From Chitinophagales bacterium (lineage in GTDB: Bacteria > Bacteroidota > Bacteroidia > Chitinophagales > UBA10324), in the NCBI GenBank assembly GCA_025057275.1, contig JANWXQ010000095.1:1-64000 (forward strand): a DNA stretch of 64,000 nt, read 5' to 3'. Below, in pieces: positions 12,189-22,528 of this stretch (position 1 is the first letter of the stretch; every line of letters starts with the position of its first letter). The notes under the pieces are model-generated. The model had not been told where the DNA came from, searched no databases, and saw nothing but the letters and a program-made list of their open reading frames with translations. The position numbers and the translations under genes were made by a program.

Positions 12189-12950
12189 TCAGTAAAACCA
12201 TTGCTGAAGATCGGCCATGGTGAGCTGCTGTTTTTGCTGGCCCGCATAATCGGCGGCGAGGGTGCCATTGCGCATGACCAGCAAGCGGTTACCATACTGA
12301 ACTGCATGCTTCAGGTTATGTGTTACCATCAGGGCCGTAAGCCGTTGCCGGCTGATCAATTGATCAGCCAACTGCATCACGCTTTCTGAGGTTCGGGGAT
12401 CCAAAGCCGCTGTGGGTTCATCGAGCAGCAGGAGGGTTGGTGGCGTTAACGTAGCCATCAGCAGGGAAATCGCCTGCCGCTGACCTCCGCTGAGCAGACG
12501 TACTTCCTTTTCCAGATTTTGCTCCATGCCCAACCCCAATGAGGCAACATAATCTCTGACCTCGGTGCGAAAGCCGGTCGTAATGCCCCAGCGCAGGGTT
12601 TTGGAGCGGGTTCTCAGGTAGCTGAGCCTGAAGTTATCCAGCACGGTAAGGTCGGGAGCTGTGCCCAGCAACGGATCCTGAAAGATGCGGGCAATGTAGC
12701 GGCTGCGTTTGTAATCGGGCCAGCGGGTGATGTCCTGCCCGTTAATCCGTATGCTGCCCATATGCGGCGTCAGACTTCCGGCAATCAGATTGAGCAAGGT
12801 GGTTTTTCCTGATCCGTTCGCGCCGATGAGCACTGCAAAGTCGCCAGTCCGAAGGGTCAAGCTGACCGCAGCGACAGCAAGCACCTCGGCGGGCTGATTC
12901 TTGTGAAACCAGCGGCTTAAGCGGTCAACTTCCAGCAGAGCGGTGCTCAT
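12189..12950 (-). CDS. ABC transporter ATP-binding protein (TrpXYZ-like family)
   Basis: Cytoplasmic ATPase of an importer. In 253 residues it shows Walker A GANGSGKT (43-50), the Q-loop in ARIFQDP, signature LSGGQ (153-157), Walker B LLLLDEP with the following ALDP D-loop, and the switch His in LMVTHN. The segment RIFQDPLLGTAPDLTVLDN is characteristic of the ATPases that work with PF04392-type binding proteins. I start it at the ATG at 12950, which places the first strand (ALLEVDRLSR) at the usual position; a longer frame runs upstream but would lie inside the permease gene. Third gene of the binding protein-permease-ATPase operon. Confidence 0.9.
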   Translation of the reverse strand: MSTALLEVDRLSRWFHKNQPAEVLAVAAVSLTLRTGDFAVLIGANGSGKTTLLNLIAGSLTPHMGSIRINGQDITRWPDYKRSRYIARIFQDPLLGTAPDLTVLDNFRLSYLRTRSKTLRWGITTGFRTEVRDYVASLGLGMEQNLEKEVRLLSGGQRQAISLLMATLTPPTLLLLDEPTAALDPRTSESVMQLADQLISRQRLTALMVTHNLKHAVQYGNRLLVMRNGTLAADYAGQQKQQLTMADLQQWFY

Positions 12951-12961
12951 ATCTTCAAAAT

Positions 12962-13828
12962 TTATAAATAAGATCGTTTTTGCAGTTGGGGGAGAGCGGC
13001 CACCAGCAAAACCAGCAAAGCAACAAGCGCTTTCAGCGCATTGGGATGAACGCCGGCCAGAAGGGCTCCTGCCACCAGCAGACGAAACAGCATACAGCCG
13101 CCCACGATCAGCAGCAATCGCCCCCACAGCGAAGAAGTGCCGGTGAGCCGAGCCAGGGCTTCACCGATAATGACTGAACCCAGGCCGAGAATAACTATAC
13201 CGATGCCCATGTTGATGTCGGCAAACTGCTGAAACTGGCAAATCAGAAATCCACTGGCAGCAGTGTAGGCATTGGCCAGTGCCAGACCGGCCGTTTTCAT
13301 AGCTGCGGTATTCACGCCGCAGGCACGCACCATGGTTTCGCTGTTTCCGGTGGCCCGCATGGCAATTCCGAAATCCGTTTTGAGCAACCACCACAGCAGC
13401 AACGTCAGCAGCAGAATAAAAATCAACATCACCAGAAACCAGTTGGTCGTTGCTACACCAGCAGTAAGCGAGTCGCTTACGGTGGGTACGTTTACCACGG
13501 GCAGATTGGAGCGCCCCATCAGCAGCAGGTTCACGGAATACAAAGCCGTCATAACCAGAATACCTGCCAGGAGGGGCTGTATGCCGAGGCGGGTATGAAT
13601 CACTCCGGTAGCCGTTCCCGCCAAACCGCCGGCCAGCAGGGACATCAGGAAAGCGGAAACCCAGCCCCAGCCGTTCAGCAGGCAAAGGGCCGTTACGGCA
13701 GCGCCCAGCGTAAAGCTGCCATCGGTAGTGATGTCGGGTAGTTGAAAGATGCGCAGCGACAGGTAAATGCCCAGACCCATGGCGGAGTACCCCAGTCCTT
13801 GCACCATGGCTGCAAGCAAAAAGTCCAT
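12962..13828 (-). CDS. ABC transporter permease (TrpXYZ-like family)
   Basis: Inner-membrane permease of 288 residues with about eight or nine hydrophobic segments, including the loop LPDITTDGSFTLGAA that is typical of this permease family and related to the branched-chain amino acid permeases. The product should form the channel with the ATPase gene 11 bases downstream. I chose the ATG at 13828 (MDFLLAAMVQGLG) because it starts just before the first membrane helix and lies one base past the stop of the binding protein gene. Substrate is unknown; the family includes a streptococcal system linked to tryptophan uptake. Confidence 0.88.
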   Translation of the reverse strand: MDFLLAAMVQGLGYSAMGLGIYLSLRIFQLPDITTDGSFTLGAAVTALCLLNGWGWVSAFLMSLLAGGLAGTATGVIHTRLGIQPLLAGILVMTALYSVNLLLMGRSNLPVVNVPTVSDSLTAGVATTNWFLVMLIFILLLTLLLWWLLKTDFGIAMRATGNSETMVRACGVNTAAMKTAGLALANAYTAASGFLICQFQQFADINMGIGIVILGLGSVIIGEALARLTGTSSLWGRLLLIVGGCMLFRLLVAGALLAGVHPNALKALVALLVLLVAALPQLQKRSYL

Positions 13829-13829
13829 A

Positions 13830-14777
13830 TCAGCGCAGCGGGATGAATTCGGGTGGAAATCCGAGATGATAGCGATGCGCCACATACGGATTATAGACCC
13901 GAACTCTTTTTGTCACAAGTTCCGGAGCAAGCCCCTGCAGGGAGCGGTTTCGGAGAAAGCGGGCAGCCTGCTGCCCGGCCTGATAGCCCCAGGCAAACAG
14001 GTCGGCACCGTAGGCAGCAACGGCGCCGGCACGAACCAGCCCGGCTTCGGAGGTGAATATGGGAACGCCGGCAGCATGGCATCGGCTGGCAATAGTGGGA
14101 AAGGAGGCGAAAACGGTATTGTCGGGCGGAGCAAAGAAGACCTGTATGCGTCTGGCCAGCAGGGCTTCCAACACCTGTTGCGTTTCTGATGAATTGTTGA
14201 CGGGAAGCGCTTCCAGCTCCAGACCGAGATGCATACAGGTTTTTCGTAATGCGTCCAGCGCGTCGCGCGATTGCGGCTCGGCCTGATTGAAAATGGCCCC
14301 CACGCGGGTTACCTGCGGCATCAGTTGCCGGATCAGGGCCACCGAGGTGTCAATGTACCAGGTTTCCTCATAAACGCCGAACAGATTGGCGGGCGGCTTG
14401 CCCTGAGCATCCAGCAGGCCGGCTTTGCCCGGGCTGGGCGACACCATCATGCATACCGGAATGGTTTTCGTTTTCTGGCAGGCGGCAATCGTAGCCACCG
14501 ACGGACAGGTAGCAATAAGGTCTACCTGCTGGGCGATCAGAAAATCCACGATTTGGGAGAGCGTGGGCAGATCGTTCTGGGCATTGCGGTAAATGACCCT
14601 CAAGGTTTTTTGCTGCTCACTAAAACCGCTGTCGGCCAAGGCCTGGAAGAATCCTTTTCGCGCTTCGGCCAGGGTTTCATCCACTAGGGCATCCACAAAA
14701 CCAATGACCGGAGCATCATGCTTTTCCGACTGACAGCCAATCAAAAAAAAGAATAGAGAAACAGCTAACCACCGCAT
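13830..14777 (-). CDS. ABC transporter substrate-binding lipoprotein (PF04392 family)
   Basis: A 315-residue lipoprotein with a type II signal peptide and lipobox Cys15 (FFLIGC). The mature part has the two-lobed periplasmic binding protein layout: IGFVDALVDETLAEARKGF near the start, VDLIATCPSVATIAA, GVYEETWYID, then TRVGAIFNQAEPQSRDAL for the second lobe. This is the COG2984-type ABC family paired elsewhere with the permease and ATPase types found next to it. It is the first gene of the operon, read from a TACCTTTG box just upstream. The ligand may be an aromatic amino acid or another small molecule; the sequence alone does not decide this. Confidence 0.88.
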   Translation of the reverse strand: MRWLAVSLFFFLIGCQSEKHDAPVIGFVDALVDETLAEARKGFFQALADSGFSEQQKTLRVIYRNAQNDLPTLSQIVDFLIAQQVDLIATCPSVATIAACQKTKTIPVCMMVSPSPGKAGLLDAQGKPPANLFGVYEETWYIDTSVALIRQLMPQVTRVGAIFNQAEPQSRDALDALRKTCMHLGLELEALPVNNSSETQQVLEALLARRIQVFFAPPDNTVFASFPTIASRCHAAGVPIFTSEAGLVRAGAVAAYGADLFAWGYQAGQQAARFLRNRSLQGLAPELVTKRVRVYNPYVAHRYHLGFPPEFIPLR

Positions 14778-16768: not shown

Positions 16769-17101
16769 GTGTACCGGATCAGTTTACGTTTTGAAGAGCC
16801 GCACAAGCAGCCGGTAGTTCTGGAAGGGCAGGTGGGAGAAACCCTGCTTGAGGTGATTCTGCGAAACGATATTGAACTGCATCACAATTGCGGCGGCGTA
16901 TGTGCATGCAGCACCTGCCACATCTATCTGGAAAAAGGGCAGGAACATGTGGAGGAAATGAGTGAGCGTGAGGAAGATTTTGTTGACCGGGCACGCAATC
17001 CTCGGCTGACCTCGCGATTGGCCTGCCAATGTGTATTGCAGGAAGGCAGCGGCGAACTGGCTGTCACCATTCCCGATCAGTCAGTGATTTTGGGTGAATG
17101 A
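16769..17101 (+). CDS. fdx: [2Fe-2S] ferredoxin of the ISC/adrenodoxin type
   Basis: Small electron carrier of 110 residues, probably supplying electrons for Fe-S cluster assembly. The cluster ligands are Cys41, Cys47, Cys50 (within CGGVCACSTC, which has an extra Cys45) and Cys86 (LACQC). The acidic helix EEMSEREEDFVD between the third and fourth ligands is typical of the vertebrate/ISC-type ferredoxins. Translation must begin at the GTG at 16769, since the first strand (YRISLRFEE) follows at once and no ATG is available. The next gene is iscX, whose family partners IscS, which strengthens the assignment. Expression starts from a TATCTTTG box only 4 bases upstream. Confidence 0.92.
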   Translation: MYRISLRFEEPHKQPVVLEGQVGETLLEVILRNDIELHHNCGGVCACSTCHIYLEKGQEHVEEMSEREEDFVDRARNPRLTSRLACQCVLQEGSGELAVTIPDQSVILGE

Positions 17102-17123
17102 TGAACAAATAAATGATGTGACT

Positions 17124-17360
17124 ATGCATGAACCTTCCATAAACTGGCCCGATTATGAAGATATCGCCATGAAGCTTTACGAACGCTTTGGCGATGAGTT
17201 CAATGAATCGCGCATATACCGCGTACGCTTTACGGACCTGATTCAATGGGTATTGGAAATTCCTTCGTTTGTCGGCAAGCGTGAGGAGTGCAATGAAGGC
17301 CATCTGGAACAGATTCAGTCGGCATGGGTATATGAGTGGCGGGCCAATCAAAAGCGCTGA
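17124..17360 (+). CDS. iscX: Fe-S cluster assembly protein IscX
   Basis: Small acidic protein that binds cysteine desulfurase IscS and may modulate or donate iron for cluster assembly. The core matches the family: INWPDYEDIAMKLYERF, the segment VRFTDLIQWVLEIPSF, and NEGHLEQIQSAWVYEW near the end. Starting at the ATG at 17124 gives 78 residues, close to the usual 66; an alternative GTG at 17094 overlaps the fdx stop and adds ten unmatched residues. kdsC starts on the base after its stop. hscB at 3159-3704 belongs to the same process. Confidence 0.88.
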   Translation: MHEPSINWPDYEDIAMKLYERFGDEFNESRIYRVRFTDLIQWVLEIPSFVGKREECNEGHLEQIQSAWVYEWRANQKR

Positions 17361-17885
17361 ATGACTGTTGCTGAACCTGCCTCCAACGTGCTGGAATTGT
17401 TGCGCCAAACCACGGCTGCCGTGTTTGACATGGACGGGGTGCTGACGGATGGAACAGTGCTCGTTACCGAAAGCGGCGAAGAATGGCGGCGCATGCATGT
17501 GCACGACGGCTATGCCCTGCAAGCAGCCCTACAGGGGGGCATGCCTGTGTTTGTTGTATCCGGAGGACATTCCGTCGGGGCAGAACTCAGGTTGCAGCGC
17601 CTGGGGATTACCGCCTGCCGAATGGGGGTTGCGGACAAAGGCCAGGCCTTGCGTGAACTGGCGCAAGCCTACAACCTGAATCTGTCCACTACGTTATACA
17701 TGGGAGATGACCTGCCCGATGCCGCTGCCCTGCGGCTTTGCGGCATTCCCTGTTGTCCGGCTGATGCCGCACCGCAGATCCAGCGACTTTGCATTTATGT
17801 TTCCCGATTCAAGGGCGGGCAGGGTTGCGTTCGCGACGTGCTGGAAAAGGTGCTTACGCTGCAACACCGCTGGGCGGAACTGTAA
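17361..17885 (+). CDS. kdsC: HAD-family KDO 8-phosphate phosphatase
   Basis: Cytoplasmic phosphatase that releases 3-deoxy-D-manno-octulosonate for lipopolysaccharide core synthesis. The 174 residues contain the HAD nucleophile and acid in VFDMDGVLTDG (Asp23, Asp25), the SGG motif at 67-69 in place of the usual SGR, Lys93 in the region ADKGQAL, and the metal-binding GDD at 115-117 (LYMGDDLPD). No cap domain is present, as expected for the tetrameric KdsC class. It starts immediately after iscX and is followed 11 bases later by a UbiA-type prenyltransferase. Related cap-less phosphatases with other substrates exist, so the substrate is inferred from family similarity. Confidence 0.85.
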   Translation: MTVAEPASNVLELLRQTTAAVFDMDGVLTDGTVLVTESGEEWRRMHVHDGYALQAALQGGMPVFVVSGGHSVGAELRLQRLGITACRMGVADKGQALRELAQAYNLNLSTTLYMGDDLPDAAALRLCGIPCCPADAAPQIQRLCIYVSRFKGGQGCVRDVLEKVLTLQHRWAEL

Positions 17886-17896
17886 TCCGCACCCAT

Positions 17897-18844
17897 ATGG
17901 CTGTCCGGAAATGGTTTCGGCTGGTGCGTGGCAACAACCTGCTCCTTATTGCATTAACCCAGTTGCTGGTTCATTACACCCTGATTGTGCCCATCTTGAA
18001 GATGGCCGGTCTGTCGCCAACGTTGGCCAACGGTTGGGTGGCCGTTCTTGTGCTGGCTACAGTATTGGTTGCTGCCGGAGGATACATCATTAACGACTAC
18101 TTTGATGTTAAAACCGATACGATCAACCGGCCCGGCCGCGTAGTCATTGACCGAAGCATTCCCAGACGTCATGCGTTGCTCTTGCATCAGATCACAACAT
18201 GGGCAGGCATCGTTCTGGCCGTCGGCGTCAGCTGGAAGGTGGCTAATCTGAAGCTGGCAGGAGTATTTCTGCTGGCAGCCGCCATGCTTTGGCTGTATTC
18301 AGCCGCGTACAAACGAAAGGCGTTGGCCGGCAACATTGTTGTGGCCCTGCTCACCGCTCTGGTGGTCATTCTGCCGCCATTATACGAGCGCCAGCTTTTT
18401 CAGCCAGCCGGCGGACCGGCCATGCAGGCAGCGCGTACCATACTGATTGTGGTGTTCTGTTATTTCGTTTTTGCTTTTCTGCTTTCGCTGGTTCGCGAAT
18501 GGGTTAAGGATCTACAGGACATGGAGGGCGATCGTCGCTCGGGCAGGCGTACGCTTCCGTTACTGTGGGGGCAGGTGCGGGTGCGCCAACTGAGCGTCTT
18601 GCTGCTTCTGCTTATCATGCTATTGATCGGCATTGTCCAGGGGTATCAGCTTTCCGGACGCGATTATGTTTCGGTATTTACCTTAATTGTCATGCTGCAA
18701 CTGCCTCTGGCTGCTTCCGTTTATTTCCTGCTTTGGCCGCAGCGCAGCGAGCCTTACCGCCTGGTCAGTCATTTGCTCAAGTGGACCATGCTCATGGGCA
18801 TTCTGACCATGCTGTATTTCTATCTGGTTACTTTGCCGAGATAG
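17897..18844 (+). CDS. UbiA-family prenyltransferase, (di)geranylgeranylglyceryl-phosphate synthase-like
   Basis: Membrane prenyltransferase of 315 residues with about nine hydrophobic helices. The two Asp-rich motifs are NDYFDVKTD (66-74), followed by TINRPGR, and DLQDMEGD after the helix REWVK. The pattern around them (INRPGR, RRTLPLLWG) is that of enzymes adding a second geranylgeranyl group to geranylgeranylglyceryl phosphate, and differs from the DAxNPRT pattern expected of menaquinone MqnP/UbiA. The ATG at 17897 precedes the first helix; a longer frame would run inside kdsC. Its 3' end overlaps the convergent mqnB by 17 bases. A quinone-related role cannot be excluded. Confidence 0.75.
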   Translation: MAVRKWFRLVRGNNLLLIALTQLLVHYTLIVPILKMAGLSPTLANGWVAVLVLATVLVAAGGYIINDYFDVKTDTINRPGRVVIDRSIPRRHALLLHQITTWAGIVLAVGVSWKVANLKLAGVFLLAAAMLWLYSAAYKRKALAGNIVVALLTALVVILPPLYERQLFQPAGGPAMQAARTILIVVFCYFVFAFLLSLVREWVKDLQDMEGDRRSGRRTLPLLWGQVRVRQLSVLLLLLIMLLIGIVQGYQLSGRDYVSVFTLIVMLQLPLAASVYFLLWPQRSEPYRLVSHLLKWTMLMGILTMLYFYLVTLPR

Positions 18845-19508
18845 GGCTTTCGAATTCAAACAGCCGATCCAGCCAGTTCACTAAAAATGCGTTCAGTTCG
18901 CGAATGGCGCGTTCGGTTTTCCACTTGTGGCGTTGCCGGCGGCGTACACGATTGGAAACTGCACGAAGGCTCAGAAAAGGAATGCCCTCCCTGAGGCAAC
19001 AATAAAAAAAAGCGGCCCCTTCCATGCTTTCCACATCGGCGTTGTATTTTTTTTTCAATAGGCTTATGGTGGACTTTTTTCCTGACGTGCGGCTAACAGT
19101 TAATCCACGCACCTGAGGCAGCCGTTGCAACAACACATCAGCAGAGTAGGGGTTGTACATCCAGCCGCCCCGAAACGGAAAGCCATCGGGATCGGCCAAT
19201 TGGAGGTCAAAAACATCCAGAAAGCGACGACCGTCTTCAGCGCCCCAATCGCCATAGCGTTCGGCGATGACCTGAACGACGGAACCGGCCTTGAGCTGCC
19301 GATGAAAGGCACCGCAAATTCCTGCCTGAACCATCAGCTCGGGCGATTGTTGCAAAAGGCGCATGACCGTATAGGCTGTTGCTGTAGGACCCACTCCACT
19401 GATGTGCACCGAAACCTGCTTGCTCCAGGCCGGAGGATTGTTGCTGTTCAGATGATTCAGCAACGGGCTTACTTCAGTCTGTGTGGCGGCAATAATGCAG
19501 ACCTTCAT
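18828..19508 (-). CDS. mqnB: Futalosine hydrolase
   Basis: Nucleoside hydrolase of the futalosine menaquinone pathway, releasing hypoxanthine from futalosine to give dehypoxanthine futalosine. The 226 residues have the nucleosidase fold: N-terminal VCIIAATQTEVSPLL, the glycine-rich HISGVGPTATAY, GICGAFHRQLKAGSVVQV, and the catalytic VESMEGAAFFYCC. An unusually basic run, NRVRRRQRHKWK, precedes the C-terminal helix, as in related family members. It is transcribed toward the UbiA gene and away from queD. mqnE at 47578-48774 supplies an earlier step, although hydrolase use implies deamination of aminofutalosine first. Confidence 0.88.
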   Translation of the reverse strand: MKVCIIAATQTEVSPLLNHLNSNNPPAWSKQVSVHISGVGPTATAYTVMRLLQQSPELMVQAGICGAFHRQLKAGSVVQVIAERYGDWGAEDGRRFLDVFDLQLADPDGFPFRGGWMYNPYSADVLLQRLPQVRGLTVSRTSGKKSTISLLKKKYNADVESMEGAAFFYCCLREGIPFLSLRAVSNRVRRRQRHKWKTERAIRELNAFLVNWLDRLFEFESPISAK

Positions 19509-19558: not shown

Positions 19559-19564
19559 CCGGTG

Positions 19565-19972
19565 ATGATATACCTGACGCGTCGCGAACGGTTCAATGCA
19601 GCCCATCGCCTCTTTCAGCCGGCATTGAGCGAGGAGGAAAACCAGCGGCTGTTCGGCGTTTGCGCCAATCCGAACTATCATGGCCATAATTACCAGCTTC
19701 TGGTAACCGTACGGGGCATCCCCGATGCTCGCACCGGTCTGGTGATGAACCTGAAGGAACTCAGCCAGTTGATTCGCAGCGAAATCATTGACCATCTGGA
19801 TCATAAAAACCTGAACCTGGAGGTCCCTTTTCTTCAGGGCATGGTACCCAGTTGCGAAAATGTGGCGAAGGCCATTTTTCACCGGCTCCGGCCGCACCTG
19901 AAAGGATGCGAGCTGCATTGCGTCAAGCTGATTGAAACCGAAAACAACTACGTGGAATACTTTGGCGATTAG
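19565..19972 (+). CDS. queD: 6-carboxytetrahydropterin synthase / PTPS family
   Basis: Zinc enzyme acting on dihydroneopterin triphosphate; in bacteria this usually yields 6-carboxy-5,6,7,8-tetrahydropterin for preQ0 and queuosine. The 135 residues show the zinc ligands His in FNAAHRLF and HGH in NPNYHGHNY, the catalytic Cys in FGVCANPN, an active-site DH pair in IDHLDHKNL and the substrate Glu in ETENNYVEY. folE, which makes its substrate from GTP, follows 53 bases later, forming a logical two-gene unit. The ATG at 19565 and an in-frame GTG three bases earlier differ by one residue. A biopterin-forming PTPS role is the alternative. Confidence 0.88.
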   Translation: MIYLTRRERFNAAHRLFQPALSEEENQRLFGVCANPNYHGHNYQLLVTVRGIPDARTGLVMNLKELSQLIRSEIIDHLDHKNLNLEVPFLQGMVPSCENVAKAIFHRLRPHLKGCELHCVKLIETENNYVEYFGD

Positions 19973-20025
19973 CCTGAGTCCGCAATTTTCAATGCATGGC
20001 CTTAACATATTAACCGTAAACAATC

Positions 20026-20634
20026 ATGAGTACCATCCGATACAGCAAATCCGAACATTTTGACGATCAGCACATCAGCCGCCTGCAGTCGGACTACGAA
20101 GACATTTTGCTTGCCCTGGGGGAAGATCCGCGCAGGGAGGGCCTGGAAAAATCGCCACTGAGGGCAGCCCGGGCCCTGAGCTTCCTCACTCAGGGGTATC
20201 AAATGGATGCCGAAGCCATCCTGCGGTCGGCCATGTTTCAGGAGGAATACAGCGAAATGGTAATCATAAAAGATATTGAAATGTATTCGCTGTGTGAGCA
20301 CCATTTGCTTCCGTTTTTCGGTCGCGCTCATGTGGCCTACATACCCGATCGCTACATCTGCGGGCTGAGCAAGATCTGTCGGGTGGTGGATGCATACTCC
20401 CGCCGGCTGCAGGTCCAGGAACGGCTGACGATTCAAATTCGGGACTGCATTCAGAATACCCTGCGCCCTTTGGGAGTCGCCGTGGTTATTGAGGCCAAGC
20501 ACCTGTGCATGATGATGCGCGGGGTGCAAAAGCAGAACTCGGTAGCCACCACTTCAGCTTTTACGGGCGCCTTTGATCAGGAACCTACCCGGGGAGAGTT
20601 TTTGCGCCTGATTGCAGCAGACACCCTGGCCTGA
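20026..20634 (+). CDS. folE: GTP cyclohydrolase I
   Basis: Converts GTP to 7,8-dihydroneopterin triphosphate, the entry to folate and to the queuosine/preQ0 precursor made by QueD. The 202-residue protein has an N-terminal helical region (about 1-65), then [20 protein letters not shown] with the zinc Cys and His, [20 protein letters not shown], and the third zinc ligand in [14 protein letters not shown]. Length and motifs are canonical for FolE type IA. It lies directly downstream of queD. The 53-base gap between them has no recognisable promoter box, so the pair is probably one transcript. Confidence 0.95.
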
Positions 20635-20659
20635 TGCCCGAAATTGGCCGTTGGCGCGG

Positions 20660-20691
20660 TTTGGGCGACGGCCCGGTGCAACCTATCTTTG
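20660..20691 (+). promoter_or_regulatory. Promoter of the fabD pair
   Basis: TTTG (20660-20663), a 20-base spacer and TATCTTTG (20684-20691) form a complete Bacteroidota-type promoter. The box ends 39 bases before the fabD ATG at 20731, which argues against the longer upstream start of that frame. Confidence 0.75.
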
Positions 20692-20730
20692 CAGCGGCCT
20701 ACCAGGCGGCAAAAATCAAGGAAAGTTTTA

Positions 20731-21609
20731 ATGCGTACGGCATTCGTTTTTCCCGGGCAGGGTGCACAGTTTCCGGGAATGGGCAAAGACCTGTTTGAAC
20801 AATCGGAACAGGCCGCCACGTTGTTTCGTCAGGCCGATGCCGTTCTTGGCTTTCCGTTAAGCCGGATCATGTTCGAGGGCAGCGAAGAAGACCTGCGGCA
20901 AACCAACGTTACGCAGCCGGCCATCTTTGTTCACTCTGTGGTCAAGGCCTGGACAGCAGGTGCGGATTTTTTACCGGATATGGTGGCGGGTCATTCGCTA
21001 GGCGAATTTTCCGCCTTGGTAACTGCTGGCAGTCTCTCTTTTGATGAGGGCCTTTTGCTCGTAAAGCGGCGGGCAGAAGCCATGCAGACCGCCTGTGAGG
21101 CAGTTCCTTCCACGATGGCCGCCATCATCGGCCTGCCTGACGAGAAGGTAGAGGCCATCTGCGCAGAAATCGAAGGCGTGGTGGTGCCGGCCAACTACAA
21201 TTGTCCGGGTCAGCTGGTCATCAGCGGAGAATTGGAAAGTGTACGCAAAGCATGCGAACGCCTTAAGGCTGCAGGCGCGAAGCGGGCCTTGCTGTTGTCG
21301 GTCGGCGGAGCTTTTCACAGTCCGCTGATGGAGCCGGCCCGCAGGGAACTGGAAGCAGCGTTGATGACCGCCACCATTCATGCACCGCGATGCCCGGTTT
21401 ATCAAAACGTGACGGCCCGTGCAGAAACGGATCCGCAGCGCATCAGAGAGAACCTCACCGCCCAGCTGACGGCACCGGTGCGCTGGACGCAGTCGGTTCA
21501 GTCCATGATTGCCGATGGCGCGTTGCGGTTTGTGGAATGCGGTCCCGGCAACGTTTTGCAGGGGCTGATTCGTAAAATTGATCCATCCGTTACCACCAGT
21601 TCGTTGTAA
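20731..21609 (+). CDS. fabD: Malonyl-CoA:ACP transacylase, first copy
   Basis: Loads malonyl groups from CoA onto acyl carrier protein for fatty acid synthesis. The 292 residues carry the N-terminal FPGQGAQFPGMG, the nucleophile Ser89 in GHSLGE, the substrate Arg in KRRAEAMQ, the catalytic His195 in GAFHSPLM and the C-terminal ECGPGNVLQGLIRKI. I start it at the ATG at 20731, which fits the family and follows the promoter; an in-frame codon at 20644 would put the promoter inside the gene. A second, diverged copy follows 34 bases after the stop. Confidence 0.93.
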   Translation: MRTAFVFPGQGAQFPGMGKDLFEQSEQAATLFRQADAVLGFPLSRIMFEGSEEDLRQTNVTQPAIFVHSVVKAWTAGADFLPDMVAGHSLGEFSALVTAGSLSFDEGLLLVKRRAEAMQTACEAVPSTMAAIIGLPDEKVEAICAEIEGVVVPANYNCPGQLVISGELESVRKACERLKAAGAKRALLLSVGGAFHSPLMEPARRELEAALMTATIHAPRCPVYQNVTARAETDPQRIRENLTAQLTAPVRWTQSVQSMIADGALRFVECGPGNVLQGLIRKIDPSVTTSSL

Positions 21610-21643
21610 CCGGTTTTAATCCCTGACGTATAGCAAAACCATA

Positions 21644-22528
21644 ATGAAAGCATATCTGTATCCGGGCCAGGGTTTTCAGTACGTCGGTATGGGAAAAAGG
21701 CTGTACGACGAGCATCCGGCAGCGCGCGATCTGTTTGAATACGCCAACGAGCTGCTGGGCTTTCGCATCACCGACATCATGTTCCAGGGCCCGGAGGAAA
21801 AGCTTCTGGAAACCACTATAACCCAGAATGCCATTTTTCTGGTTTCATTGCTGCAGTCGCTGAAAGATGGTAGCCGGTTTCAGCCCGACTGCGTTGCCGG
21901 CCACAGCCTCGGGGAAACAACTGCCCTGGTGGCGTGCCAGGCGCTCAGTTTTGAGGATGGCCTTTTGCTGATGGCCGAGCGGTCGGTGGAAATGGAAAAG
22001 GCTTTTCGTGCCAAACCGGCCAAAATGGTGGCTATTCTGGGTATGAGCGATGAGCAGGTCGTGATGTGCCTGCGTCAGGTGGAGGGGCTGGTAGTTCCGG
22101 CCAACTACAATTGCCCCGGCCAACTGGTGATTGCCGGTGAAAAAGAAGCGGTTGAAGAAGCGTGCGAAATTCTCCGCCAGCACGGGGCGCGCCGACTGGT
22201 AGAGCTTAAAGTAGGTGGGGCGGTGCATTCGCCGCTCATGCAGCCAGTGGCAGACTATCTGGAAAAGAAGTTGCGGACTATTGAATTTCGCCCACCCGTT
22301 TGCCCGATTTATCCCAACGTTACCGGAAAAGCCACTACGGATGTGGAGGAAATTCGAAACTGTCTGATCCTGCAGCAGGTGAAACCGCTGTTGTGGCAAC
22401 CCACCATTGAAAACATGATTTACGACGGGGTTACGGAATTTGTGGATTGCGGTCCGCCTCACGTCATCAGCGGTATGGTGCGCCGCATCAATGCCGAAGT
22501 AGCGGTTACCTCATCGGTATATGTCTGA
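21644..22528 (+). CDS. FabD paralogue, tandem second copy
   Basis: A 294-residue acyltransferase of the FabD family, diverged from the first copy but collinear with it. It keeps the nucleophile Ser88 in GHSLGE, the Arg in MAERSVEME (position 113), His195 in GAVHSPLM and the stretch VVPANYNCPGQLVI that is shared with copy one. Differences fall at substrate-facing places: GQGFQ for GQGAQ, GHSLGET for GHSLGEF, and the C-terminal ECGPGN region reads DCGPPHVISGMV. The copy may be a second malonyl transferase or one with another acyl-CoA preference. It sits 34 bases behind fabD and 11 bases ahead of a thioesterase gene. Confidence 0.88.
   Translation: MKAYLYPGQGFQYVGMGKRLYDEHPAARDLFEYANELLGFRITDIMFQGPEEKLLETTITQNAIFLVSLLQSLKDGSRFQPDCVAGHSLGETTALVACQALSFEDGLLLMAERSVEMEKAFRAKPAKMVAILGMSDEQVVMCLRQVEGLVVPANYNCPGQLVIAGEKEAVEEACEILRQHGARRLVELKVGGAVHSPLMQPVADYLEKKLRTIEFRPPVCPIYPNVTGKATTDVEEIRNCLILQQVKPLLWQPTIENMIYDGVTEFVDCGPPHVISGMVRRINAEVAVTSSVYV

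Follow-up and report, generated by a model that had tools for sequence, protein, structure and literature searches.

The ubiA gene of the window (the whole stretch of 64,000 nucleotides of Chitinophagales DNA that was analysed) lies at positions 17897-18844 of the forward strand and codes for a 315-residue UbiA-family prenyltransferase of the DGGGP synthase (DGGGPS) type, here called P0001. We consider P0001 to be a membrane (S)-2,3-di-O-geranylgeranylglyceryl phosphate synthase, with a probability of about 0.8. This reading is supported by the sequence type of the protein, its catalytic residues and predicted fold, by the presence in the same genome of a partner gene for GGGP synthase (GGGPS), by the strict co-occurrence of the two genes across genomes and by their paired absences. 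The reaction, the C20 chain length (from the type of the GGGPS), the stereochemistry and the downstream steps are what we infer for it.

Sequence type, catalytic motifs and predicted fold

The reading frame at 17897-18844 comprises 315 codons and a terminal stop, with no internal stops (frame 1 of the reverse complement has 7), and the gene is real and intact. The ATG at 17897 is preferred as the start over the upstream TTG at 17789, because the latter falls within kdsC; a scan for promoters and terminators returned sites no more numerous than in shuffled sequences. P0001 matches the Pfam UbiA profile (PF01040) with 105.9 bits (E 2.7e-30; cut-off 34.2), far beyond chance, and this profile together with the match of its model to UbiA structures places it in the UbiA superfamily. 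The family assignment of the initial annotation, and the two motifs quoted with it, are borne out by the translation and by the Pfam match: NDYFDVKTDTINRPGR begins at residue 66 (base 18092), and the last residue of DLQDMEGD is 212 (base 18532). The best NCBIfam model for P0001 is NF009513 ('prenyltransferase'; 249.9 bits, below the curated cut-off of 288), followed by NF009512 (geranylgeranylglycerol-phosphate geranylgeranyltransferase; 201.2 bits, below the curated cut-off of 278); these cut-offs are annotation thresholds and not biochemical criteria, and that of NF009513 is passed by only 14 of 296 Bacteroidota genomes. Further matches are to NF009523 (prenyltransferase; 125.1 bits), to two GGGP geranylgeranyltransferase models (107.2 and 91) and, more weakly, to ChlG (61.8), EboC (51.4) and a MenA model (NF004749; 30.5, cut-off 277). 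All 15 NCBIfam matches at E <= 0.01 lie below their own cut-offs, and no MqnP model is among them. The closest PDB entry by sequence is 6m31 (4e-14), the DGGGPS of M. jannaschii (MjDGGGPS).

Three motifs carry the residues shared with MjDGGGPS. In the first (NDYFDVKTD; 18092-18118, forward strand), N66, D70 and D74 align with N62, D66 and D70 of the archaeal enzyme; in the second (YSAAYKRKALAGN; 18296-18334, forward strand), which is followed by GN, Y134 and K139 align with Y125 and K130; and in the third (REWVKDLQDMEGD, of the RExxKD form; 18494-18532, forward strand), D205, D208 and D212 correspond to D180, D183 and D187. All eight MjDGGGPS residues are therefore identical in P0001, and their roles are discussed as important in the literature on these enzymes (PMC9385802). 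RExxKD and NDxxDxxxD were found in none of the five MqnP, six MenA and single CtaB sequences compared. The analysis as a whole supports the earlier view that the motifs are typical of DGGGPS rather than of menaquinone enzymes. RExxKD alone is no mark of DGGGPS, since it occurs in 9 of 16 archaeal sequences (drawn from the best 80 of at least 512 confirmed loci) and also in 13 of the 14 sequences of the Flavo_mev group, which is called mevalonate-linked and includes one protein (L146 of genome G041) whose neighbour is Maf.

The AlphaFold model of P0001, built with 31 sequences, has a mean pLDDT of 93.8 and a pTM of 0.91. Its top structural matches are the two DGGGPS entries 7bpu and 6m31 (Z 26.0, rmsd 3.8, 276 residues aligned), followed by the Aeropyrum UbiA (Z 22.5), with other UbiA proteins lower, in a ranking that covers Foldseek candidates only and in which UbiA subfamilies without a solved structure cannot show up. 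The predicted fold appears to be DGGGPS-like, and likeness of fold is by itself no proof of function.

Gene context and separation from the quinone enzymes

In the window, ubiA closes a tight string of forward-strand genes, fdx-iscX-kdsC-ubiA, joined by an 8-bp overlap and then by gaps of 0 and 11 bp. The first gene codes for a 2Fe-2S ferredoxin (16769-17101; PF00111, 44.8 bits, cut-off 21; TIGR02007, 86.1, below the cut-off of 132.1), the second for IscX (17094-17360; TIGR03412, 63.9, cut-off 40.4) and the third, which ends 11 bp before ubiA, for a KdsC-family HAD phosphatase (17361-17885; TIGR01670, 108.1, cut-off 106.95). The gene for the futalosine hydrolase MqnB (18828-19508, reverse strand; TIGR03664, 138.8, cut-off 124.7) is convergent and shares 17 bp with the 3' end of ubiA. 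The initial annotation had placed ubiA with kdsC and next to mqnB; kdsC is indeed directly upstream and mqnB adjacent, but mqnB, on the opposite strand, stands outside the string. Elsewhere in the window, on the forward strand, a gene of the 6-pyruvoyl-tetrahydropterin synthase family is followed by an open reading frame that by eye resembles GTP cyclohydrolase I (19562-20634), and two tandem open reading frames resemble, again by eye, the malonyl-CoA:ACP transacylase FabD (20644-22528); on the reverse strand, three overlapping genes look by eye like those of an ABC transporter (substrate-binding protein, permease and ATPase; 12189-14777).

Around the UbiA genes of relatives (tblastn at 1e-4, within 3 kb of UbiA), the 15 loci of the same order have Maf in 13, KdsC in 10, ferredoxin in 8 and DUF2520 and IscX in 7 each; the 7 loci of families f8-f11 have DUF2520, ferredoxin and IscX in 2 each, KdsC in 1 and Maf in none; and the 5 Maf-linked loci of family f6 have Maf in 5 and KdsC and DUF2520 in 4 each. 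MqnB was found at none of these 27 loci. A further 7 loci, of the mevalonate-linked kind, have none of Maf, KdsC, ferredoxin, DUF2520, IscX and MqnB.

That P0001 serves as a quinone prenyltransferase, in the role of MqnP or MenA and together with the neighbouring mqnB, seems very improbable; a quinone role had been raised in the initial annotation. The futalosine route requires a UbiA-type enzyme, which, with the adjacency of mqnB, lends the idea some appeal, as does the MqnP-type gene found 3.3 kb downstream of UbiA in one relative (G269). The genome, however, has its own MqnP-type gene on another contig (C40; TIGR01475, 295.3 bits, cut-off 180.8; three MqnP models at 247-275, below their own cut-offs). 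In addition, a MenA search (TIGR00751) gave no match in the genome, and mqnB is convergent and is not a conserved neighbour; on these grounds a quinone role was ruled out as the main reading. The distribution of UbiA across genomes, described below, follows that of GGGPS, which again speaks against such a role. Two further UbiA proteins bring the total in the genome to four: CtaB (C17; TIGR01473, 240.9, cut-off 210.3), whose gene adjoins others that by eye resemble cytochrome oxidase subunits, and a very divergent UbiA-like protein (C57:10418-10954; 298 aa, 35.7 bits to Pfam) encoded downstream of a gene resembling, by eye, a carboxyltransferase. There are two polyprenyl synthases.

Phylogenetic trees were built from hand-chosen sequences, 117 of the 210 proteins extracted from loci and 3 from the genome itself, 120 in all. 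In a quick tree of these 120 rows, P0001 falls inside a set of 29 Bacteroidia rows (SH-aLRT 95), and the MqnP (5 rows) and MenA (6 rows) proteins form supported groups of their own. Rows of family f2, from the same order as the window, group there with contigs named as Chitinophagaceae, from which the organism probably belongs to the order Chitinophagales. In a careful tree of 55 rows, P0001 belongs to a 19-row Bacteroidia clade (92/91) nested in a 24-row Bacteroidia clade (100/100), the rest of which is the clade of mevalonate-linked paralogues (100/99), and MqnP (100/99) and MenA (100/100) again stand apart from it; chlorophyll synthase is represented in neither tree. The deep order of the careful tree is weak, with no settled link between the Bacteroidia and archaeal rows: two Cloacimonadota rows group with other FCB rows in the quick tree and among euryarchaeal rows in the careful one. 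In the careful tree, five rows of family f18 (L254-L258) fall with Thermoproteota. These f18 proteins are NF009523 prenyltransferases (above the cut-off of that model in 5 of 5), and since they nest there and come from genomes without GGGPS, a position near archaeal DGGGPS is no proof of function. In an AU test on the 55 rows, forcing P0001 together with MqnP was 21.8 log units worse and was not rejected at the 5% level (p 0.076). The UbiA tree that the initial annotation had proposed as a check thus gives a divided answer: P0001 groups with GGGPS-associated Bacteroidia proteins, outside MqnP and MenA, in both trees, but the AU test still allows a join with MqnP.

The pairwise phmmer scores separate P0001 from the quinone enzymes more clearly than the trees do. 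They reach 187 bits against relatives of the order, 69 bits against the two Cloacimonadota rows, 48-81 bits against the 16 archaeal rows (taken, as above, from the best 80 of at least 512 loci) and 45-52 bits against the five f18 rows, and they do not exceed 13.2 bits against the six MenA rows and 4.8 bits against the five MqnP rows, with a score below 0 against CtaB. P0001 is accordingly not counted among the MqnP proteins, as it matches neither TIGR01475 nor another MqnP profile at E <= 0.01 (the AU test alone does not exclude MqnP), nor among the MenA proteins, given its 30.5 bits to NF004749 and their separate clade.

Co-occurrence with GGGP synthase and the KdsC-Maf locus

A search of the genome (2.48 Mb in 108 contigs, completeness 99.44) for GGGP synthase, as the initial annotation had suggested, was successful: the gene lies on a contig other than that of ubiA (C59:12175-12843, reverse strand) and its product scores 179.9 bits to TIGR01769 (cut-off 161.55) and 272.7 to NF003198 (cut-off 247). 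Its best PDB match is 4jej (9e-56), which we take to be the structure of the Flavobacterium johnsoniae GGGPS. Such a structure has been reported from that organism (PMC9385802).

To place this pair in a wider frame, one set of 296 Bacteroidota genomes was screened both with NF009513 (at E <= 1e-20) and with the GGGPS profile PcrB, a match of at least 97 bits counting as presence of the latter. By this measure 105 genomes have PcrB (the Pfam cut-off of 23.9 bits would count 114); weak matches in 61 of the 166 genomes at E <= 0.001, none above 27.9 bits and, among the matches listed, all close to the profile end, were taken to be other TIM barrels and not counted. An NF009513-type UbiA is present in all 105 genomes with full-length PcrB, and the UbiA proteins of these 105 (50 tree rows and 55 more) have RExxKD in every case and KDxxDxxGD in 104. 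Conversely, PcrB is missing from 21 genomes that reach E <= 1e-20 with NF009513, namely 7 of family f18, 6 of f5, 6 of f6, G041 and G231 (G225, at 1.6e-20, falls outside the set). In the 19 of these that were read, the motif-bearing UbiA type occurs in two. RExxKD is absent from the five f18 proteins read (of 7 genomes), and the motifs are absent from all six of f5, each of which adjoins a GHMP-kinase-like gene, and the six f6 genomes have only the mevalonate-linked UbiA paralogue. The two that carry a DGGGPS-type, motif-bearing UbiA without a full-length GGGPS, G041 (L146, beside Maf) and G231 (L341), are real exceptions to the pairing. Co-occurrence of GGGPS with motif-bearing UbiA is strict in the direction from PcrB to UbiA (105/105). 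The f18 proteins, which are related to archaeal DGGGPS, have EEIAADxxDxEGD in place of RExxKD.

The strongest evidence added by this analysis is the paired absence of the unlinked GGGPS and UbiA genes. Family f6, which we would guess to be the Flavobacteriaceae, has two UbiA copies, one beside Maf, in most cases preceded by DUF2520 and KdsC, and a second that is clustered with genes for mevalonate decarboxylase and GHMP kinase. PcrB is present in 23 of 29 f6 genomes, and the Maf-linked UbiA in all 23 of these and in none of the 6 that lack PcrB (Fisher 2e-6, ignoring relatedness). The two genes are far from each other: in the f6 genomes that consist of a single contig (G029, G103, G118, G206 and G226), more than 1 Mb separates PcrB from the Maf-linked UbiA. 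The KdsC locus was read in 8 genomes without PcrB (6 of f6 and 2 of f5), and the Maf-linked UbiA copy is absent from all 8, their relatives having the order KdsC-UbiA-Maf. In 7 of the 8, KdsC and Maf adjoin each other, with a spacing (from overlap to 293 bp) too small for a UbiA gene to lie between them; in the eighth (G088), KdsC and DUF2520 are present, with no Maf within the 1.5 kb viewed. On a tree of the mevalonate-linked UbiA paralogue, which took the place of a species tree, PcrB status requires 3 changes and yields 3 independent pairs, every one pointing the same way; p in the sign test is 0.25 and cannot be significant with so few pairs, because fewer than 6 cannot reach 0.05. No published description of the KdsC-Maf locus with and without UbiA, or of the paired absence, was found in the titles, abstract openings and parts of papers covered. 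The mevalonate-linked f6 proteins form a clade (L095, L097, L099, L101, L103-L105, L113, L139 and L142-L145) whose genes stand beside mevalonate-pathway and pseudouridine-synthase genes; their third motif reads KDxEN, for KDxED in DGGGPS, in 11 of 13 rows, and they are retained where GGGPS is absent.

The same loci bear on the place of kdsC. The phosphatase might be specific to the pathway and dephosphorylate its ether-lipid phosphate, kdsC and ubiA then being a functional unit, and the 11-bp spacing in the window and the presence of kdsC within 3 kb of UbiA at 10 of the 15 loci of the order and 4 of the 5 of f6 would fit such an arrangement. Against it, no kdsC lies within 3 kb at 6 of the 7 loci of families f8-f11. 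Moreover, no other gene of the genome matches TIGR01670 at E <= 0.001, and each of the 8 GGGPS-lacking genomes tested has a TIGR01670 match above the cut-off, a retention that speaks against a lipid-phosphate phosphatase; we read the protein from these two observations as an enzyme of LPS synthesis. We regard the partnership as highly improbable. KdsC is probably a Kdo-8-P phosphatase and, since it is kept where the GGGPS/UbiA pair is absent, a bystander.

Proposed reaction and relation to known systems

As a DGGGPS, P0001 would act after GGGPS, which would join geranylgeranyl diphosphate (GGPP) and glycerol phosphate to give GGGP; P0001 would then attach a second prenyl group, donated by GGPP, at the C-2 hydroxyl of GGGP, yielding a diether lipid phosphate, with its two aspartate-rich motifs expected to hold Mg2+ and the diphosphate. 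By profile searches, the genome appears not to hold a full archaeal ether-lipid pathway. At E <= 0.001 it has no match to the G1P dehydrogenase EgsA/AraM (PF13685; the same search was positive in 13 of 14 control genomes) and none to CarS (PF01864; positive in 7 of 14), and the geranylgeranyl reductase (GGR) that the initial annotation proposed to look for did not turn up, the best TIGR02032 score being 35.7 bits against a cut-off of 158.8. This and five other weak matches to the GGR superfamily were taken as other FAD proteins. Since CarS, G1P dehydrogenase and a clear GGR were not found, activation of the product may fall to the bacterial CDP-diacylglycerol route, or the product may be dephosphorylated; in the absence of some unrecognised reductase it would remain mostly unsaturated, and the diether would probably be a minor lipid alongside ordinary ester lipids. 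Among 36 chosen genomes, TIGR02032 is over its cut-off in 10: both Cloacimonadota, 4 of the 24 Bacteroidia that carry GGGPS, and all 4 genomes with GGGPS that belong to the phylum but not to the class, with none of 4 Bacteroidia without GGGPS and neither of 2 family relatives of undefined GGGPS status. A divergent GGR in Bacteroidia is conceivable, because in some of them sub-cut-off TIGR02032 matches reach 133 bits.

The same gaps in the pathway would suit a different GGGP-dependent enzyme, one with a chain other than C20, with a GGGP based on G3P, or with a neutral or otherwise modified lipid as its product and no membrane phospholipid. The scarcity of GGR in GGGPS-bearing Bacteroidia, compared with the phylum outside the class and with Cloacimonadota, points the same way, and the related monoether of Bacillus is dephosphorylated and acetylated (PMC9179154). 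On the other side, the GGGPS and DGGGPS of Ca. Cloacimonetes yield unsaturated archaeol-PG in E. coli (PMC7852524), from which it follows that bacterial head-group enzymes can suffice. We hold such an enzyme to be unlikely, if less so than a quinone role, and DGGGPS remains the preferred reading.

By extension, many ordinary Bacteroidia (relatives of the order, families that group with Chitinophagaceae, Cyclobacteriaceae, Hymenobacteraceae and Spirosomataceae contigs, and f6) may make an archaeal-type C20,20 diether lipid that has so far gone unreported, using no more than two dedicated enzymes, with neither G1P dehydrogenase nor CarS and mostly without a recognisable GGR, and lineages that cease to do so may lose both unlinked genes. 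We give this wider proposal an even chance, and put at about the same level the prospect that Bacteroidia really accumulate the C20,20 diether. Whether there are bacteria with mixed archaeal and bacterial membranes bears on the origin of the lipid divide. Should the pair prove active in ordinary Bacteroidia, the lipid question becomes open to laboratory strains, in which the natural losses are built-in negative controls. Moreover, the pair seems to work with fewer companion enzymes than in Cloacimonadota, and where the glycerol-1-phosphate comes from and what becomes of the diether are then concrete questions.

Previous work bears out the remark in the initial annotation that FCB bacteria have been proposed to carry genes for archaeal ether lipids. 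A survey of 12 FCB phyla reported GGGPS and DGGGPS orthologues in all of them and called it unclear how these serve where G1P dehydrogenase is lacking (PMC6431249). For Ca. Cloacimonetes, activity of GGGPS and DGGGPS in E. coli has been shown, and other FCB bacteria likewise have both homologues (PMC7852524). A DGGGPS-like cluster, G3, is described in marine Flavobacteria (PMC9235831), bacterial GGGPS in Bacteroidetes is cited elsewhere (PMC9179154) and the Ca. Cloacimonetes case is repeated in a later paper (PMC10821996). With such homologues in print (PMC6431249; PMC7852524; PMC9235831), the presence of these genes in Bacteroidetes is not new. Functional evidence in print comes from Ca. Cloacimonetes, for which cultivation was not achieved (PMC7852524), and among titles and abstract openings we found no report of ether lipids measured in a Bacteroidia strain. 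A link to Ubi-297 was ruled out, this being EboC of the ebo cluster, with a different gene context (PMC9235831).

Compared with known systems, P0001 shares with the M. jannaschii enzyme (6m31, 7bpu) the predicted fold, at 21-22% identity over the 276 structurally aligned residues, and the eight residues listed above, and differs from it in sequence, with 27% identity over an aligned fragment of 224 residues. It differs also in its host, a bacterium in which G1P dehydrogenase and CarS gave no matches and GGR no clear one. MqnP, MenA and CtaB resemble it in belonging to the UbiA superfamily and in having aspartate-rich motifs, but they form separate clades and lack RExxKD and NDxxDxxxD. Candidatus Cloacimonadota, represented in our set by, among others, the MAG NIOZ-UU3 (L201) named in the original work (PMC7852524), have the same UbiA motifs and the same pairing with GGGPS, and CarS and G1P dehydrogenase are reported missing there as well (PMC7852524). 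The differences are that GGGPS and DGGGPS are co-localised in those bacteria (PMC7852524) and lie on different contigs here, that GGR is over the cut-off in both Cloacimonadota genomes and none passes it here, and that their rows stand apart from the Bacteroidia in the careful tree. FCB-group orthologues of GGGPS and DGGGPS (PMC6431249), among them cluster G3 (PMC9235831), are already in print, and the ubiA gene of the window belongs to that reported kind.
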